From contig JAGLUH010000156.1 in assembly GCA_023134875.1 (NCBI GenBank), forward strand, positions 1 to 11,508: DNA of 11,508 bases. Direction: 5' to 3'. The translations under genes were made by a program, and so were the position numbers. The DNA is from Candidatus Zixiibacteriota bacterium (GTDB taxonomy: Bacteria; Zixibacteria; MSB-5A5; CAIYYT01). Shown one piece after another: positions 734 through 9,501 of this stretch; positions within the stretch are counted from its first letter, which is position 1, and each line of letters begins with the position of its first letter. The notes beneath the pieces are model-generated. The model worked only from the letters and a program-made list of their open reading frames with translations. It was not told the origin of the DNA and made no database searches.

Positions 734-1663
734 ATGAAAACAGACTACGATATCATCATCGTCGGTGGCGGGCCAGGTGGATTAACCGCCGGACTCTATG
801 GCGCGCGTGCTAATTTGAAAACACTTTGTATCGAGAAATACCTGCCCGGCGGGCAGATCGTCAATACGGATGACGTGGAGGATTATCCTGGTTTCGAGCA
901 TATCAGCGGTCCGGAACTCTCGAAGAAATTCGAGGATCATGCTCGTAAATTCGGCCTGGAGATCATTAGCGATCTGGTTGAGGAGATCTATACTGAGGGT
1001 GATGTCAAGGTAGTCAAAGCATCTGAACGTACCCTGACCACCAAGGCGGTGATTCTCTCCACCGGTGGTTCACCGAACAAGCTGGGTGTTCCCGGCGAAG
1101 AGGAGCTTGCCGGTCGTGGTGTTTCCTACTGCGCTATCTGCGATGGCGCCTTTTTCAAAAACCAGGTCATAGTCGTTGTCGGTGGCGGCGATGCCGCCGT
1201 CGAGGAAGCTATGTTCCTGACCAGGTACGCCTCCAGGGTGATTATCATTCATCGCCGTGACCAGTTGCGCGCCCAGAAGATCATCCAGCAGCGCGCCTTC
1301 AAGAATGAGAAAATGGAGTTTATCTGGGATTCGGTAGTTGAATCAATCGAAGGCACAGAGAAGGTCTCCCATGTCAAGGTGAAGAATGTCAAGACCGGCG
1401 AGGTTTCGCAGATTGAGTGCGCCGCCGTTTTCGTTTTCGTCGGTTTTGTGCCCAACTCCAGGATCACCCGCGAGCCGCTCAAGACCGATGAGAAGGGACA
1501 TATTATTACCGATGACAAAATGGAAACCTCGATACCGGGTATTTATGCCTGTGGCGATGTGCGTCATCAACTGGTACGCCAGATCACCAATGCCGTTGGC
1601 GACGGTACCACCGCAGCAATGGCCGCCTATAAGTATATCGAGGAACTGGAGGATAAGCAGTAG
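734..1663 (+). CDS. trxB: Thioredoxin reductase (NADPH)
   Basis: This low-molecular-weight flavoprotein passes electrons from NADPH through FAD and a redox disulfide to thioredoxin in the cytoplasm. The 309 residues match the bacterial TrxB length of about 310. Visible in order are the FAD-binding IIIVGGGPGGLTAG near residues 7-20, the active-site pair C133-A-I-C136 followed by DG, the NADPH-binding GGGDAAVEEA (150-159), HRRDQLRA (173-180) for the 2'-phosphate of NADPH, and the C-terminal FAD motif CGDVRHQLVRQ..AVGDG. All catalytic elements are intact. The ATG at 734 follows an AGGA about 10 nt upstream; the overlapping ATG at 730 reaches a stop at once. lipA follows after 18 nt, so this is probably the first gene of a four-gene operon. 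The intact enzyme is a useful contrast to the cysteine-less relative two genes downstream. Confidence 0.96.
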   Translation: MKTDYDIIIVGGGPGGLTAGLYGARANLKTLCIEKYLPGGQIVNTDDVEDYPGFEHISGPELSKKFEDHARKFGLEIISDLVEEIYTEGDVKVVKASERTLTTKAVILSTGGSPNKLGVPGEEELAGRGVSYCAICDGAFFKNQVIVVVGGGDAAVEEAMFLTRYASRVIIIHRRDQLRAQKIIQQRAFKNEKMEFIWDSVVESIEGTEKVSHVKVKNVKTGEVSQIECAAVFVFVGFVPNSRITREPLKTDEKGHIITDDKMETSIPGIYACGDVRHQLVRQITNAVGDGTTAAMAAYKYIEELEDKQ

Positions 1664-1681: not shown

Positions 1682-2566
1682 TTGAACATGCCACAACATA
1701 AACCGGATTGGTTGACCGTGAGGATGCCAGCCGGTGAAAACTACCAGCGCATCCGCAAACTGATCGAGAGTCATCACCTGCATACCATTTGCCAGGAGGC
1801 CAATTGCCCCAACCGGTGCGAGTGTTATAACAGCGGCACCGCAACTTTTTTGATTCTTGGTTCCCACTGCACCAGAGGTTGTACTTTCTGCAATGTCTCG
1901 CGAGGTGAGCCGACACCGTACGATCCGGGTGAAGCTGATCGCGTGGCGGACGCTGTCGCCTGGCTGGAACTCGATTATGTTGTGATCACTTCGGTTACTC
2001 GCGATGACCTGACTGATTATGGTTCTACCTTGTTCGCACTTGTCTGTGACAAGGTGAGGAAGGCGCGACCCGGTTGCCAAGTGGAGCTGTTGATTCCTGA
2101 TTTTATGGGGGATAGAAAGGCTTTTGCTCGCGTGGTGGCGGCTACGCCTGATGTGCTCAACCATAACCTGGAAACCGTCAAACGCCTTTATGGTGAAGTG
2201 CGACGCGGGGCCGACTATGATCGTTCGCTTGATGTGTTTACTGCCTTTCGCGAACTCGCACCCGGACTGATCTTGAAATCAGGGCTGATGGTGGGACTGG
2301 GCGAGACTATTACCGAACTGAGGGAAGTTATTTCTGACCTGGCTGAGCGTGGTTGCCGGATTCTGACGATCGGCCAGTACCTGCAACCTTCACCACGACA
2401 TCATCCGGTTGTCAAGTTCTATCATCCGGATATCTTCATCGAACTGGCTGAACTGGCACAGGCAGCCGGTATTGATATTGTCGAGTCAGCACCTCTGGTA
2501 CGTAGTTCCTATCATGCTAAGGAATCATATCTCAAGATATCGACCGCAATCAGGTGGAACTCGTAG
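1682..2566 (+). CDS. lipA: Lipoyl synthase (radical SAM, two 4Fe-4S clusters)
   Basis: LipA inserts two sulfur atoms into protein-bound octanoyl groups to make lipoyl cofactors of 2-oxoacid dehydrogenases and the glycine cleavage system. Using the 294-residue numbering, the auxiliary-cluster motif is C37-x4-C42-x5-C48 (CQEANCPNRCEC), the radical SAM cluster is C63-x3-C67-x2-C70 (CTRGCTFC), and the C-terminal RSSY (274-277) holds the serine that ligates the auxiliary cluster in known LipA structures. NHNLETV and LKSGLMVGLGE are further family motifs. The length is normal. The frame opens at a TTG (1682), but an ATG two codons later (1688) is equally possible; neither has a strong Shine-Dalgarno, so expression may depend on coupling to trxB 18 nt upstream. 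No lipB, lplA or gcv gene is in view. The 3' end overlaps or abuts the next gene, indicating co-translation. Confidence 0.96.
   Translation: MNMPQHKPDWLTVRMPAGENYQRIRKLIESHHLHTICQEANCPNRCECYNSGTATFLILGSHCTRGCTFCNVSRGEPTPYDPGEADRVADAVAWLELDYVVITSVTRDDLTDYGSTLFALVCDKVRKARPGCQVELLIPDFMGDRKAFARVVAATPDVLNHNLETVKRLYGEVRRGADYDRSLDVFTAFRELAPGLILKSGLMVGLGETITELREVISDLAERGCRILTIGQYLQPSPRHHPVVKFYHPDIFIELAELAQAAGIDIVESAPLVRSSYHAKESYLKISTAIRWNS
2552..2557 (+). promoter_or_regulatory. Ribosome binding site inside the lipA 3' end that decides the next start
   Basis: AGGTGG at 2552-2557 lies 8 nt before a GTG at 2566 that overlaps the last base of the lipA stop (TAGTG). The alternative GTG at 2554 lies within this purine box itself, so 2566 is the better start. 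Confidence 0.6.
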
Positions 2567-3453
2567 TGGATATTGAACCGGTAATTATCATCGGCGGTGG
2601 GCCGGCGGGAATTGCCGCTGCGATCCAACTGGCACGTTACGGCGTCAGACCAATCATCTTCGAGAAGGAGAAGCTGGGTGGTCTGCTCCGGAATGCCAAC
2701 CTGGTGGAAAATTATCCCGGCTTTCCGGGCGGTATCTCCGGTATCGAATTGGCCGCCCTTTTCGAGCAGCAACTCAGCGAGCATGAGGTAAGAGTCTTAG
2801 GCGAGGAAGTGGTGGCTCTTGATTACGACAACCGCAGCTTTCTTGTTACTTCTGACCGGCGGCTTTATCGCTCTCAAATAGCGGTGATTGCCAGTGGAAC
2901 CAGGGCAAAGCGACTCCGTGATATCGATATTCCGGAGAACGCCCGGGACAGGGTTTTCTACGAAGTTGTCCCTCTGCTGGGGATGACGGACAAGAAGATA
3001 GTTGTCGTCGGCGCCGGCGATGCTGCCTTTGATTACACCCTGACTCTCGGCCGCGAAAATGATATTACCCTTCTCAATCGCAGCCGTGAGGCCAAGTGCC
3101 TGCCTCTGCTGCGACAACGATTGCAGAAACTTGCAAGGGTGAGTTATCATACAAATGCGCAAATCACAAGTATTCAGCATGATATGTCCGGAAAACTGGC
3201 GGTTGAGGTCAATAGTCACAATGAAGTTTTGCAGCTTGAAGCAGATTATCTTATCTTCGCAATCGGTCGGGAGCCGTCGTGCGATTTTCTCTCAGCACGG
3301 TTGCAGGAAAAAAGCGATGAACTGAAGAACGAAGGTTTATTATATTTCATCGGCGATGTTAAGAATGGCAACTTGCGGCAAACATCAATCGCCGTAGGGG
3401 ATGGCGTAAAAGCGGCCATGCGCATAGCCGAAAAGCTGGGAGATCAAAGCTGA
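2566..3453 (+). CDS. Thioredoxin-reductase-like FAD oxidoreductase lacking the CxxC active site
   Basis: This is a cytoplasmic flavoprotein of the TrxB fold, 295 residues from the GTG at 2566. It shows the N-terminal FAD motif VIIIGGGPAGIAAA, LGG near residue 37, ENYPGFPGG, ASGT, a second Rossmann motif VVVGAGDAAFD (near 146-156) and a C-terminal IGDVKN..LRQ..AVGDG. The region where TrxB has its redox CAxC reads DRVFYEVVPLLG and contains no cysteine. The NADPH-phosphate motif HRRxxxRA is replaced by NRSREAKCL. It therefore probably binds FAD, may prefer a different nucleotide, and cannot reduce thioredoxin by the normal route. It is translationally coupled to lipA (1-nt overlap, TAGTG) and followed 1 nt later by a radical SAM gene. 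A role as electron donor to these enzymes is inference. Ferredoxin:NADP reductases of the TrxB-like type are a known family of CxxC-less relatives and are a plausible alternative. Confidence 0.85.
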   Translation: MDIEPVIIIGGGPAGIAAAIQLARYGVRPIIFEKEKLGGLLRNANLVENYPGFPGGISGIELAALFEQQLSEHEVRVLGEEVVALDYDNRSFLVTSDRRLYRSQIAVIASGTRAKRLRDIDIPENARDRVFYEVVPLLGMTDKKIVVVGAGDAAFDYTLTLGRENDITLLNRSREAKCLPLLRQRLQKLARVSYHTNAQITSIQHDMSGKLAVEVNSHNEVLQLEADYLIFAIGREPSCDFLSARLQEKSDELKNEGLLYFIGDVKNGNLRQTSIAVGDGVKAAMRIAEKLGDQS

Positions 3454-3454
3454 G

Positions 3455-4417
3455 ATGAAAGTGATTGCCTGCGCCGGCAGGGATGATCTGGCGACCGTTT
3501 ACCTGGCGGAGATGGGAGATGGGAAAGTGGTGGAGTTCGTAGAATCGCTGCAACCGCCGCTGACCAGAGAGGAAAAATGGGTGACGATTCTGTCGACTCT
3601 CTATGGCTGTCCGGTGAAATGCCCGATCTGCGATGCCGGCAGTTGCTATCGTGGTAAACTCACTAAACAGGATATGCTGGCGCAGCTTGATTTCCTGGTT
3701 AAGAGAAGATATCCCTCCGGCAGCATTCCCGCCAGGAAGTTCAAGGTGCAGTTCGCCCGCATGGGAGAACCCGCCTATAATACCGCAGTCCTTGATGTAT
3801 TGAAGGAGTTGCCGAGCCGTTATGATGCTCCGGCGCTGATGCCATGTATCTCCACTATTGCACCGACGGGCGTTGAGTCGTTCTTTGAAAGCCTGCTTGC
3901 TATAAAACAGGAATTGTATCCGGGCCGGTTTCAACTGCAATTCTCTATTCATTCCACCGACAGCGCCGAGCGGGACTGGTTGATCCCGACAAAAAAATGG
4001 GACTTCGCCCGCATTGCCCGCTACGGTGAACGGTTCCAACAATCGGGCGACAGAAAGATCACTTTGAATTTCGCCCTGGTACGGGATGTGTCGGTGGATG
4101 CGGACGAATTACTCAAGTATTTCAACCCCGATATTTTTCTTATCAAGATCACGCCGCTGAACCCCACTCATCGGGCTGTCAGCAGCAAGCTGGCGACATA
4201 CATTGATCCGGCGCGACAAGGGGAAAGCTACCAGGTGGTGGAGAAGCTTCGCTCATGTGGCTACCAGGTTATCGTCAGTATCGGTGAGACCGAGGAGAAC
4301 CAGATCGGCAGCAATTGCGGGCAGTATGTTACCAGGCATCTGTCGAATCAAACGGAGCTTGAGAACGCCTATCAGTACCCACTGCGGCATTACCAGCAAA
4401 GGGAAACCGTCCTTTAA
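3455..4417 (+). CDS. RlmN/Cfr-like radical SAM protein, divergent
   Basis: RlmN and Cfr are radical SAM enzymes that methylate adenine in 23S rRNA (RlmN also in tRNA) through a methylated cysteine. This 320-residue protein shows the same order of motifs. The cluster motif is C52-x3-C56-x2-C59 (CPVKCPIC), GEP is at 104-106 (ARMGEPAYN), CISTIAP is near 131-137, and LQFSIHS..RDWLIP resembles the family's SLH..RxxLMP. ITPLNP resembles LIPYNP, and the terminal GSNCGQ has C288 aligned to the methyl-carrying cysteine. Two parts are unusual: the residue seven before the first cluster cysteine, a catalytic cysteine in E. coli RlmN (C118), is I45, and only about 50 residues precede the cluster, so the usual N-terminal RNA-binding domain is missing or very short. 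The start ATG lies 1 nt after the previous stop, behind GGGAG. The target is unknown; a true RlmN role is unlikely with these losses. Confidence 0.82.
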   Translation: MKVIACAGRDDLATVYLAEMGDGKVVEFVESLQPPLTREEKWVTILSTLYGCPVKCPICDAGSCYRGKLTKQDMLAQLDFLVKRRYPSGSIPARKFKVQFARMGEPAYNTAVLDVLKELPSRYDAPALMPCISTIAPTGVESFFESLLAIKQELYPGRFQLQFSIHSTDSAERDWLIPTKKWDFARIARYGERFQQSGDRKITLNFALVRDVSVDADELLKYFNPDIFLIKITPLNPTHRAVSSKLATYIDPARQGESYQVVEKLRSCGYQVIVSIGETEENQIGSNCGQYVTRHLSNQTELENAYQYPLRHYQQRETVL

Positions 4418-4520
4418 CCCGTCCAGTTCGTAAGCTTGACTTGCTCACTGGGAACCCGAGCTTTAATCCTCGGATTGTCACGCTCCGAGAGATCGTGACC
4501 TACCGGATTCCCGTTTTTGT
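4418..4520. other. Intergenic stretch with candidate branched fold
   Basis: There is no gene here. Three nested pairings can be drawn: an outer gggaa (4450-4454) with ttccc (4508-4512), and inside it two hairpins, ccgag (4456-4460) / ctcgg (4469-4473) and gtcacg (4477-4482) / cgtgac (4494-4499). A short T-run follows at 4514-4518. The segment agatcgtgacctaccg (4490-4505) recurs with two changes at 8190-8205, so this is probably another dispersed repeat. It may serve as the transcript end of the upstream operon. Confidence 0.4.
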
Positions 4521-4670
4521 GCTTGTTGAAAAAGTCTTTGCGAGGCGTGAAGGGCTTAAGACCTGAGCGACGTGGCAATCTCGAAGTTGTTTGTCATCAG
4601 CACGTTGAGATCGCCACCTCCAGCAGCCGCCGGACTCGCGATGACAAGGTATGCAGGTTTTTCAACAAGC
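4521..4670. repeat. Small inverted-repeat (MITE-like) element, copy 2
   Basis: A 150-bp element has perfect 13-bp terminal inverted repeats, gcttgttgaaaaa (4521-4533) and tttttcaacaagc (4658-4670). The core ggactcgcgatgaca (4632-4646) matches the core of copy 1. The left half carries tttgcgaggcg and gcgacgtggcaatctc, a pattern resembling dispersed repeats that contain a cattgcgagg core. Frames that can be read through it (4517-4711, 4572-4913) are not genes. It sits between the convergent ends of the radical SAM gene and the PadR gene. Confidence 0.85.
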
Positions 4671-4690
4671 CCAGACTCCTGCCCTACCAA

Positions 4691-5260
4691 TCAGCCGCTG
4701 GCGGGGCGTGAGAGAGAATCCCAGTTGTCAGGGGTGTTTTTGGCCAGCCACTTGAGGAAATCGAGTTCCGATTTGAGAAACTTAATACGGTGCCGGATGA
4801 CTGCGAATCTGCCGAAACTGATTTTACCGGCAAGTTCCGCCTCCCGCCAGACCTCCTGGATCGCGGCCAGTTCCTGCTGCAACGCCTGGCGGCGCCCCTC
4901 CAGCACTTCCTGAAAATCCTTCTTGTCGCTGCGGAAACGCTCGGGAAAACCCAGCAGCAGATCGAAATCGAAATAGCAGCGATTGTAGAGGAGCCGATCG
5001 GTAATAGCGGTGTCGCCCAGGGCGTTTCTCCCTTTCTTGGTGATCTGATGCAGACGTTTTAGTTCATGCGGTTGCGGCGGCAGCAGCTCGACGTAGCCGT
5101 GTTTTTCCAGCTTGCGCAGAGCATAATAGAGATGGGGACGGGAATACTCCGCCCATAGCTGGGCACCGCGGGCGGTAAGAGTAGCGTCAAGCTCCCAGCC
5201 ATAGGAAGGCTTTTCAGCCAGCAACGCCAGAATAATCAGGTCAGTGCGAGTTATTTCCAT
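4691..5260 (-). CDS. PadR-family transcriptional regulator
   Basis: This 189-residue protein has a winged helix at the N-terminus and an extended helical C-terminus. The N-terminal part (LIILALLAEKPSYGWEL, then the recognition region WAEYSRPHLYYALRKLEKHGYVE, residues about 8-58) is typical of PadR, where the wing follows and a GKI/KGR element (ITKKGRNAL) closes the domain. The rest (about 85-180) is rich in charged helices (RRQALQQELAAIQEVWREAEL, in the style of the Vir_act_alpha_C dimerisation domain). PadR proteins are usually ligand-responsive repressors that control a neighbouring gene and themselves. Here the divergent neighbour is the response regulator at 5448, 187 bp away. The ATG at 5258-5260 has no Shine-Dalgarno and may begin a leaderless message (see promoter). 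The ligand cannot be told from sequence. Confidence 0.88.
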   Translation of the reverse strand: MEITRTDLIILALLAEKPSYGWELDATLTARGAQLWAEYSRPHLYYALRKLEKHGYVELLPPQPHELKRLHQITKKGRNALGDTAITDRLLYNRCYFDFDLLLGFPERFRSDKKDFQEVLEGRRQALQQELAAIQEVWREAELAGKISFGRFAVIRHRIKFLKSELDFLKWLAKNTPDNWDSLSRPASG

Positions 5261-8487: not shown

Positions 8488-9501
8488 ATGCGACATAGGA
8501 TTTCGATAGTTCTAGCGATTTTGCTGACGGCAGTGGTGTTTGCGCTATTTGGTTGTGGCGATGACAGTACGGAACCGTCGGCGGTATTTGATACGATTGC
8601 CTTGCAGCCGGTGCGCCTGCCTACGCTCAAGAGTGGACTTATCTACGAGGGCTGGGTAGCCCGACTTGATGAAGACTCAAACTGGGTTGAATATCAGTCT
8701 TTCGGCAAGTTTTTCTGGGATGAGGACGACTATTTCTTCCTGAGCCCTGGTGACACCACCCAGATAATCGATTCGGTTTTTCAAATCCAGGGTAGTGTTT
8801 ACGACTATGATGTTGTCGCCCTCACTCTCGAAAGTGATCCCGTTGATAACAATCCGGCGGAACCGTCACCAACGGTGGTGGCGTCGAGCCCAATCGTTCC
8901 CGATCGGTTCACACTGATGCGTTTCCCTGCTGAATTCACCGAGGCGGAGGGGTATTTCACTATCGGTACCTTCTCCGACGGTCACTATAAGGAAATCGGT
9001 GACAGCATTACCAACGAATACTCCGGTATCTGGTTTCTGGAGTTGTCGTGGTCAGCTGACGCCAGTGGCACCCCGGTATACGAGGAATATGCCACCGGCC
9101 TGACGTTGCCTGTTCTTCCCGATACCGGCTACCTGTACGAGGGCTGGATCAAGCTCAATAATGGCGATACGCTTTCGACCGGCAAGTTCTACCTCCCTGA
9201 GTTCCAGGATTATGACAACAGCCATATGCTTGATGGCGCTATTCCAAATTTCCCGGGCGAAGATTTCCTGGCGAATCCACCGGACGGTATGCAGTTTCCG
9301 ATCAACATACTGGTAGGCGGGCAGGCCTTTATCAGCATCGAGCCGAATCCCGACAACGATCTTGACCAACCGAGTAACTTGATTGTTCTCCGAGGTAATC
9401 TGCCGGTGGCTGACGGCGAAGTGCGGAACTCCTCCTTCCCGATGGAGAATATCGCTGCGTTGCAGTTTCCCCGGGTGAATGTCTATTTTTTAACAGACTG
9501 A
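8488..9501 (+). CDS. Secreted lipoprotein with two RskA-like domains
   Basis: The 337-residue protein starts with a basic N-terminus and a hydrophobic stretch (residues 5-21). A lipobox follows (L20-F21-G22-C23), then GDD, indicating lipidation at C23 and export to the cell envelope. The acidic residues at +2/+3 after the cysteine might favour inner-membrane retention in some bacteria. The mature part looks like a tandem duplication. LPTLKSGLIYEGW (44-56) and LPVLPDTGYLYEGW (207-220) each lead to a G-K-F strand (SFGKFFW, STGKFYL). Each copy ends with a strand-loop-strand: ALTLESDP..EPSP in the first, and FISIEPNPDNDLDQPSNLIVLRG (281 on) in the second. This pattern resembles the C-terminal domain of RskA-type anti-sigma factors, but no N-terminal sigma-binding domain or transmembrane anchor is present. 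I do not recognise a named gene. It has its own promoter and terminator, so it is a single-gene unit. Confidence 0.8.
   Translation: MRHRISIVLAILLTAVVFALFGCGDDSTEPSAVFDTIALQPVRLPTLKSGLIYEGWVARLDEDSNWVEYQSFGKFFWDEDDYFFLSPGDTTQIIDSVFQIQGSVYDYDVVALTLESDPVDNNPAEPSPTVVASSPIVPDRFTLMRFPAEFTEAEGYFTIGTFSDGHYKEIGDSITNEYSGIWFLELSWSADASGTPVYEEYATGLTLPVLPDTGYLYEGWIKLNNGDTLSTGKFYLPEFQDYDNSHMLDGAIPNFPGEDFLANPPDGMQFPINILVGGQAFISIEPNPDNDLDQPSNLIVLRGNLPVADGEVRNSSFPMENIAALQFPRVNVYFLTD

Follow-up and report, generated by a model that had tools for sequence, protein, structure and literature searches.

The RlmN-like gene and its family

The window analysed here, an 11,508-nucleotide stretch of contig JAGLUH010000156.1 from a Candidatus Zixiibacteriota bacterium, encodes at 3455..4417 (+) an RlmN-like radical S-adenosylmethionine (SAM) protein of 320 amino acids (aa), P0001, a member of what we call family A. 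The open reading frame (ORF) starts with ATG and is intact. One bp upstream on the same strand (2554..3453) lies its usual partner, a gene for a TrxB-like flavin adenine dinucleotide (FAD) oxidoreductase without the active-site CxxC of TrxB. In an alignment of 104 family A sequences, P0001 included, the [4Fe-4S] cluster ligands C52-x3-C56-x2-C59 (3608..3631, +) are invariant. C288 (codon 4316-4318), located in a C-terminal helix-strand-loop of residues 259-293 (4229..4333, +), faces the methyl-carrying C355 of RlmN and is Cys in 104/104 sequences, and the CGQ loop around it is retained; the initial annotation, which had reported that the RlmN motifs and C288 are kept, is borne out. E27 (3533..3535, +) faces an invariant Glu of RlmN and is Glu in 104/104 family A and 10/10 RlmN sequences. 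We take this column to be E105 in E. coli numbering. In RlmN, according to the excerpts of PMC9692996 used here, E105 is the base that deprotonates C355.

What is missing is the second, resolving cysteine. Its position is occupied by I45 (codon 3587..3589, +): residue 45 faces residue 118 in a profile alignment to C118A RlmN chains, and in a merged alignment this column is Cys in 10/10 RlmN. The isoleucine first noticed in a single protein proves to be one case of a family-wide replacement, the 104 sequences carrying I (71), L (24), M (8) or T (1). Four other cysteines had been suggested as substitutes and none is conserved in the alignment: C6 is Cys in 3/104, C131 in 38/104 and C268 in 9/104, and in the C64 column Cys lies outside the eight commonest residues. 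We therefore rejected the idea that another cysteine fills the C118 role, none being conserved among the family A sequences examined. Of 7875 candidates in a protein search with P0001, 6619 passed E<=1e-3, a number that may include RlmN or other relatives. The best 120 of these are of equal length (311-334 aa) and, P0001 aside, 59-68% identical to P0001; together with 41 invariant columns among the 104 aligned sequences (mean column identity 64%), this excludes chance.

The N-terminus is altered in the same consistent manner. In an AlphaFold2 model of P0001 (predicted local distance difference test, pLDDT, 91.8), which among solved structures comes closest to RlmN and Cfr, residue 1 pairs with RlmN residue 80; three beta strands are present and the helical domain is absent. 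Met1 is common to 64 of 67 family A proteins (those of length 300-330 among 80 detected) and, taken with the model alignment, this makes the shortened N-terminus a family trait. The domain described initially as missing is thus the helical one, while the beta extension carrying the Glu is retained. Family A keeps the fold, the cluster site, the activating Glu and the methyl-carrying Cys; none of the members examined has the general-base Cys or the RNA-binding domain.

A scan of GTDB species genomes confirmed 435 relatives. The best 80 of these, which were the loci analysed, include sources in Chloroflexota, Zixibacteria, Cloacimonadota, Latescibacterota, Eisenbacteria, Krumholzibacteriota, Acetothermia, WOR-3, Neomarinimicrobiota, Syntrophaceae and Thermoplasmata archaea. 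Within the phylum Zixibacteria, 26/132 genomes give a match at E<=1e-20 and 25/132 carry family A, one as a contig-end fragment (G115); G087 holds a member of a second family, B, described below. With these two set aside, canonical RlmN scores above the curated cut-off in 23 of the 24 Zixibacteria genomes carrying family A. The exception is the window's own genome, where RlmN was not found and where, at 77% completeness, its absence is uninformative. Canonical RlmN is likewise above the cut-off in 4/5 genomes of the window's taxonomic family and in 25/40 genomes of a broad set (40 of the 80 examined, completeness not stated). We rejected family A as an RlmN replacement, since canonical RlmN coexists with it. 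Additional hits to RlmN in genomes G009, G014 and G038 belong, by reading of their sequences, to a different radical SAM group. Among the matches listed, source databases use the names 'radical SAM protein' or '23S rRNA (adenine2503-C2)-methyltransferase'; the latter, given by one annotation source, is probably wrong for family A. The search patterns used did not find family A in IMG/VR. In two Zixibacteria genomes (L021:4670-10155, the same genome as L131, and the similar L043/L137) the TrxB-like/RlmN-like pair adjoins phage head genes, which may point to prophage carriage; PHROG matches were scanned for L021 only.

The flavoprotein partner and the operon

Gene order was surveyed in 82 loci: the window, L010 and 80 from the GTDB scan. 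A TrxB-like gene lies on the same strand and at most 200 bp upstream in 68 of the 71 loci with at least 900 bp of upstream sequence, and 4-bp gene overlaps are common. An isochorismatase-like gene is found within 1300 bp in 53 of the 66 loci with at least 1700 bp upstream, and farther off in 2 more; in three examples scanned the hydrolase is PF00857. A second set, of 23 Zixibacteria loci and sharing some members with the first, has the TrxB-like gene in 20/21 and the isochorismatase-like gene in 7/19. The only Zixibacteria locus without a TrxB-like gene, L151, holds a family B member, and once it is removed the family A counts become 20/20 and 7/18. As the TrxB-like gene is near-universal and the hydrolase less constant, the constant unit is the flavoprotein plus the RlmN-like enzyme. 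No further cluster among the neighbouring genes occurs in more than 9/80 loci; CooC-like (5 loci), NadA-like (4), MttB-like (3) and hydrogenase-like (2) neighbours, named by sequence reading, were too few to retain.

The partner has the two-domain FAD/NAD(P) fold of thioredoxin reductase, and the TrxB active-site CxxC is absent in 60/60 partner proteins. We infer that its FAD accepts hydride from NAD(P)H with no thiol relay involved. Its model (pLDDT 96.1) reaches a template modelling score (TM) of 0.86 to a thioredoxin reductase structure titled as the FR conformation and 0.58 to one titled FO. Distances between partners and distances between enzymes correlate (r 0.68 over 58 loci, 0/2000 permutations as high), a value in which shared ancestry is uncorrected. 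Several observations weigh against so tight a tie between the flavoprotein, the hydrolase and the enzyme. In three of the 71 loci (L019, L047 and L064) the 200 bp upstream hold no TrxB-like gene, that of L064 being about 1 kb upstream; the window itself has lipA rather than the hydrolase before the pair, and only 7/18 of the Zixibacteria family A loci have the hydrolase. Two of the 60 partners (L077 and L084) have a CxxC elsewhere. The conformation argument is weak, because NADP-bound thioredoxin reductase structures fall on both sides (5vt3, TM 0.86; 2q0l, TM 0.60), and the distance correlation lacks a correction for species phylogeny.

The lipoyl synthase gene lipA (1682..2566, +; TIGR00510, 332.8 bits against a cut-off of 310) overlaps the TrxB-like gene by 13 bp. 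Of all the loci examined, this window alone has lipA beside the pair, and a lipoate association as a family trait was rejected on that ground. Further upstream, an ordinary thioredoxin reductase gene, trxB, with CAIC (734..1663, +; TIGR01292, 386 bits against 343), is possibly in one transcription unit with the pair. A cob(I)yrinic acid adenosyltransferase gene (CobO/BtuR, 42-506) has a profile match that begins at position 22 and is probably truncated by the contig start. At 8488-9501 lies a 337-aa ORF whose N-terminus reads like that of a lipoprotein and which matches nothing in Pfam or NCBIfam at E 0.001.

Proposed chemistry and substrate

Based on these observations, we propose that family A is a distinct family of RlmN-related radical SAM enzymes that uses C288 as a carrier, acts on a non-RNA substrate and releases its product independently of C118. 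We favour this model and hold it tentatively, its combined claims falling a little short of probable. The excerpts of PMC9692996 and PMC13001441 at hand describe RlmN catalysis as follows: one SAM methylates C355, a second SAM generates a methylene radical, and C118 (C105 in Cfr) removes the proton from the target carbon, which lets the C-S bond break; C118A RlmN and C105A Cfr remain crosslinked and covalent adducts accumulate. Family A retains the residues of the first half (E27, C288, the cluster and the GEP motif) and lacks the base of the second. By analogy, C288 would be methylated by SAM with E27 as base, and a second SAM would yield a 5'-deoxyadenosyl radical that turns methyl-Cys288 into a methylene radical. 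It counts against the model that methyl carriage by C288 is deduced from homology. C288 might instead serve as a hydrogen-atom donor or relay that quenches a product radical after hydrogen abstraction from the substrate, as in epimerase, reductase or mutase chemistry, and C118 would then be unneeded. A single Cys is used as hydrogen donor by other radical SAM enzymes, the loss of C118 with one Cys retained fits such a role, and a net reduction would suit the reductase partner. A plain hydrogen donor, however, would need neither the invariant activating Glu (104/104) nor the CGQ loop, and we consider this alternative unlikely.

In the model proposed here, the methylene radical would add to a small, probably negatively charged substrate inside the barrel, at a site near K97, Q99, R102, Q162, N205 and K231. 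These polar barrel-strand residues are new in family A (104/104 each, N205 102/104); at the same positions RlmN has N/H for K97, V for Q99, G for R102, A for Q162, N for K231 and E for N205. Contacts of Cfr to A2503 include S103, S153, N288, R327, S328 and F330, according to the part of the preprint PMC13001441 used here. The positions of N288 and R327 hold N and R in 10/10 RlmN and invariant K231 and G277 in family A, and S103, S153, S328 and F330 correspond to V43, Q99, E278 and E280 in P0001. Mean pI is 6.98 in family A, against 9.49 for RlmN open frames and 9.22 for RlmN cores (n=10; 10 of 16 RlmN loci, 6 having been removed by a motif/frame filter). The replaced contacts, the new polar barrel residues and the lower mean pI suggest that the substrate is probably small, anionic and not RNA. 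Some of this evidence is less firm than it appears. At the S103 and S153 positions RlmN, too, departs from Cfr (T/A/S and V), and the same excerpts of PMC13001441 have the S328 and F330 contacts made via nitrogen or backbone atoms, so that little weight falls on any but N288 and R327. The comparison covers the Cfr contacts other than Y97 and M95, which lie where there is an insertion; the barrel residues are placed by alignment and not by distances in coordinates. The RlmN frames used for pI were taken stop to stop, and the family A range (4.7-9.4) makes some members overlap RlmN.

Might the enzyme still be an RNA methylase, one that acts on a shape-restricted RNA such as a tRNA loop or fragment, without the N-terminal domain and with another general base? 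RlmN and Cfr are the nearest solved structures and the early chemical steps would be alike. Against this stand the replacement of the N288 and R327 contacts, the lower mean pI, the presence of a canonical RlmN alongside, and a neighbourhood whose only conserved genes are the TrxB-like and isochorismatase-like ones; we regard it as distinctly improbable. The initial suggestion of a different, perhaps non-RNA, substrate gains support from the same contacts, pI values and coexisting RlmN and from the loss of the RNA-binding domain, and family A probably acts on a substrate other than RNA.

How would the proposed Cys-CH2-substrate adduct be resolved? Since no second cysteine is conserved, release would be independent of C118 if the methyl-cysteine chemistry is kept; a different release mechanism, as had been put forward, follows on that premise, and its nature is conjectural. 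Another residue, the substrate itself or the partner protein might take over this step. As the best candidate electron source, the flavoprotein may draw on NAD(P)H and, from its FAD, reduce the cluster (directly or via ferredoxin), a thiyl or the adduct. Most other loci also have the isochorismatase-like hydrolase, which could act before or after the enzyme on an amide or ureido metabolite. A stable protein-substrate adduct, that is a one-turnover or tethering protein, had also been considered in the initial annotation, and the adducts that accumulate in C118A RlmN and C105A Cfr (PMC9692996 and PMC13001441, in the excerpts cited) would give it a precedent. Family A is conserved in many phyla and has a flavoprotein partner of its own, and the family-wide losses, the many invariant barrel-strand residues and the conserved redox partner favour turnover; we find no support for a stable adduct and deem it very improbable. 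A decayed RlmN pseudogene or misassembled fragment, which the lack of a visible canonical RlmN in the 77% complete genome might suggest, is refuted by the family data, namely the best listed homologues of equal length at the identities given above, the intact radical SAM motifs and the mean column identity, and has virtually no probability left.

Phage relatives and comparison with known systems

The divergent Zixibacteria relative at L151 (P0121) leads to a second large family, B. Its search gave 6488 proteins at E<=1e-3 among 8000 candidates scored, which may include RlmN and other relatives, and the best 120 of them were listed. The C118 position is Thr in 25/25 aligned members, and R102, Q162, N205, K231, P234 and C288 are common to all 25; N stands at K97 and H at Q99. 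It counts against the model proposed above that, when family B is aligned to P0001, its residue in the E27 column is not Glu, though B has its own invariant Glu nearby (E34, 25/25). In a midpoint-rooted tree of 57 rows, 18 of them from the 104 family A sequences, RlmN, A and B are each set apart by a branch of their own (100/99, 98/95 and 100/100), and A and B group together at 95/91. Family B is common in phages, with 150 viral contig stretches, and a protein of Bacteroides phage Versailles is 66.5% identical to the family B protein P0235. The phage loci with family B (L152-L231 and L232) have no stable neighbours; NAMPT-like (5/84 loci) and Thg1-like (4/84) genes, named by reading, are too few to conclude from. 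In Vibrio phage 495E54-1 (L234:3120-6813) an RlmN-like protein follows a ribose-phosphate diphosphokinase gene and one of the nicotinate phosphoribosyltransferase family, a set that resembles one for NAD salvage. This protein has Cys at the C118 position and groups with RlmN on a long, unsure branch, for which reasons its context was not applied to family A.

A further group of phage relatives is split. Proteins of Moorella phage MTATph1, Vibrio phage D479 and Kehishuvirus tikkala have Gly at the C118 position and stop before the CGQ loop, which is encoded by the next small ORF, of 40, 93 and 43 aa respectively; in the D479 peptide the loop motif is present twice in tandem. MTATph1 and D479 fall outside A+B in the tree, on long unsure branches, and Kehishuvirus tikkala is not in the tree. 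An IMG/VR scan with the split cores gave 58 loci, which include near-identical viruses and are not independent events. The CGQ loop is present in 0/58 cores (L295 being a 99-aa fragment). A loop peptide lies at most 450 nt downstream in 39/58 and elsewhere in the locus stretch in 15 of the other 19; it was not found in the locus stretches examined for L239, L253, L254 and L278. A stricter pattern recovered peptides, 45 of them distinct, from 56/61 loci. Split cores with a separate AACGQ peptide of about 40 aa are thus seen at L233:6866-7828, L235:5878-6958, L236:2869-3791 and in 54/58 of L238-L295, and the peptide looks like a carrier or a substrate peptide acting in trans. Because the peptide profile aligns gap-free to P0001 residues 259-293 (hhalign probability 89%, E 2.3e-6, single comparison), with a weaker match to the C-terminus of RlmN (75%, E 2.5e-5), the arm at the C-terminus of such enzymes appears to be a separable module. 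In the two split loci whose ORFs were listed, further genes lie between core and peptide: in L270 another radical SAM protein (PF04055) together with an ORF that weakly resembles a methyltransferase, below the cut-off (3299-4030 and 4018-4464), and in L268 another radical SAM protein barely above the cut-off (3936-4847). Their arrangement is like a small biosynthetic cassette. We speculate that the cysteine arm is a modular carbon-carrier on which a one-carbon unit is built or transferred and from which partner proteins, rather than a second cysteine in the active site, release the adduct. The arm would be in cis and served by flavoprotein electrons in family A, and in phages would be a free peptide of about 40 aa, possibly a trans carrier or the modified product, in some cases next to another radical SAM enzyme. 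This wider view is rather doubtful.

What are the implications of a carrier cysteine that is kept when the resolving one is lost? To our knowledge, no class A radical SAM methylases other than RlmN and Cfr have been characterised, and each of these two modifies RNA and depends on two cysteines. Family A asks what C118 actually does, and whether methyl-cysteine radical chemistry exists outside RNA. If the split phage version functions as it seems to, the carrier cysteine could be examined, labelled and exchanged on a peptide of its own. A literature search by title and abstract found no study of family A, its operon or its split relatives, and the family, though widespread, is apparently unstudied. 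The observation from which this work started was confirmed and its interpretation partly upheld; the operon and the family-wide loss lay beyond what one sequence could reveal.

In comparison with known systems, family A resembles RlmN, the C2-methylase of 23S rRNA A2503 and tRNA A37, with which it shares the CX3CX2C cluster motif and the C355-equivalent Cys in the CGQ loop, but it lacks C118 and the N-terminal RNA-binding domain and its barrel-strand residues are changed; P0001 scores 42.5 bits against the RlmN model TIGR00048, below the curated cut-off of 290. It is also below the cut-offs for Cfr, the C8-methylase of 23S rRNA A2503 (30.9 against 550 bits for TIGR04432 and 33.7 against 530 for NF000424), the equivalent of C105 is absent and the mapped A2503-contact residues are replaced. 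The partner flavoprotein relates to thioredoxin reductase in a similar way, with the same fold but no active-site CxxC and 150 bits where the cut-off is 343. Across Pfam, NCBIfam and PHROGs, the best profile match of P0001 is phrog_24834 (113 bits, E 2.4e-32, no curated cut-off), a group of phage proteins of unknown function that is family B. Both families lack C118 and share the R, Q, N, K and P residues and the methyl-Cys; family B differs from family A in a longer stretch before the cluster, CGN in place of CGQ, no stable neighbour, a phage context and its separate place in the tree.
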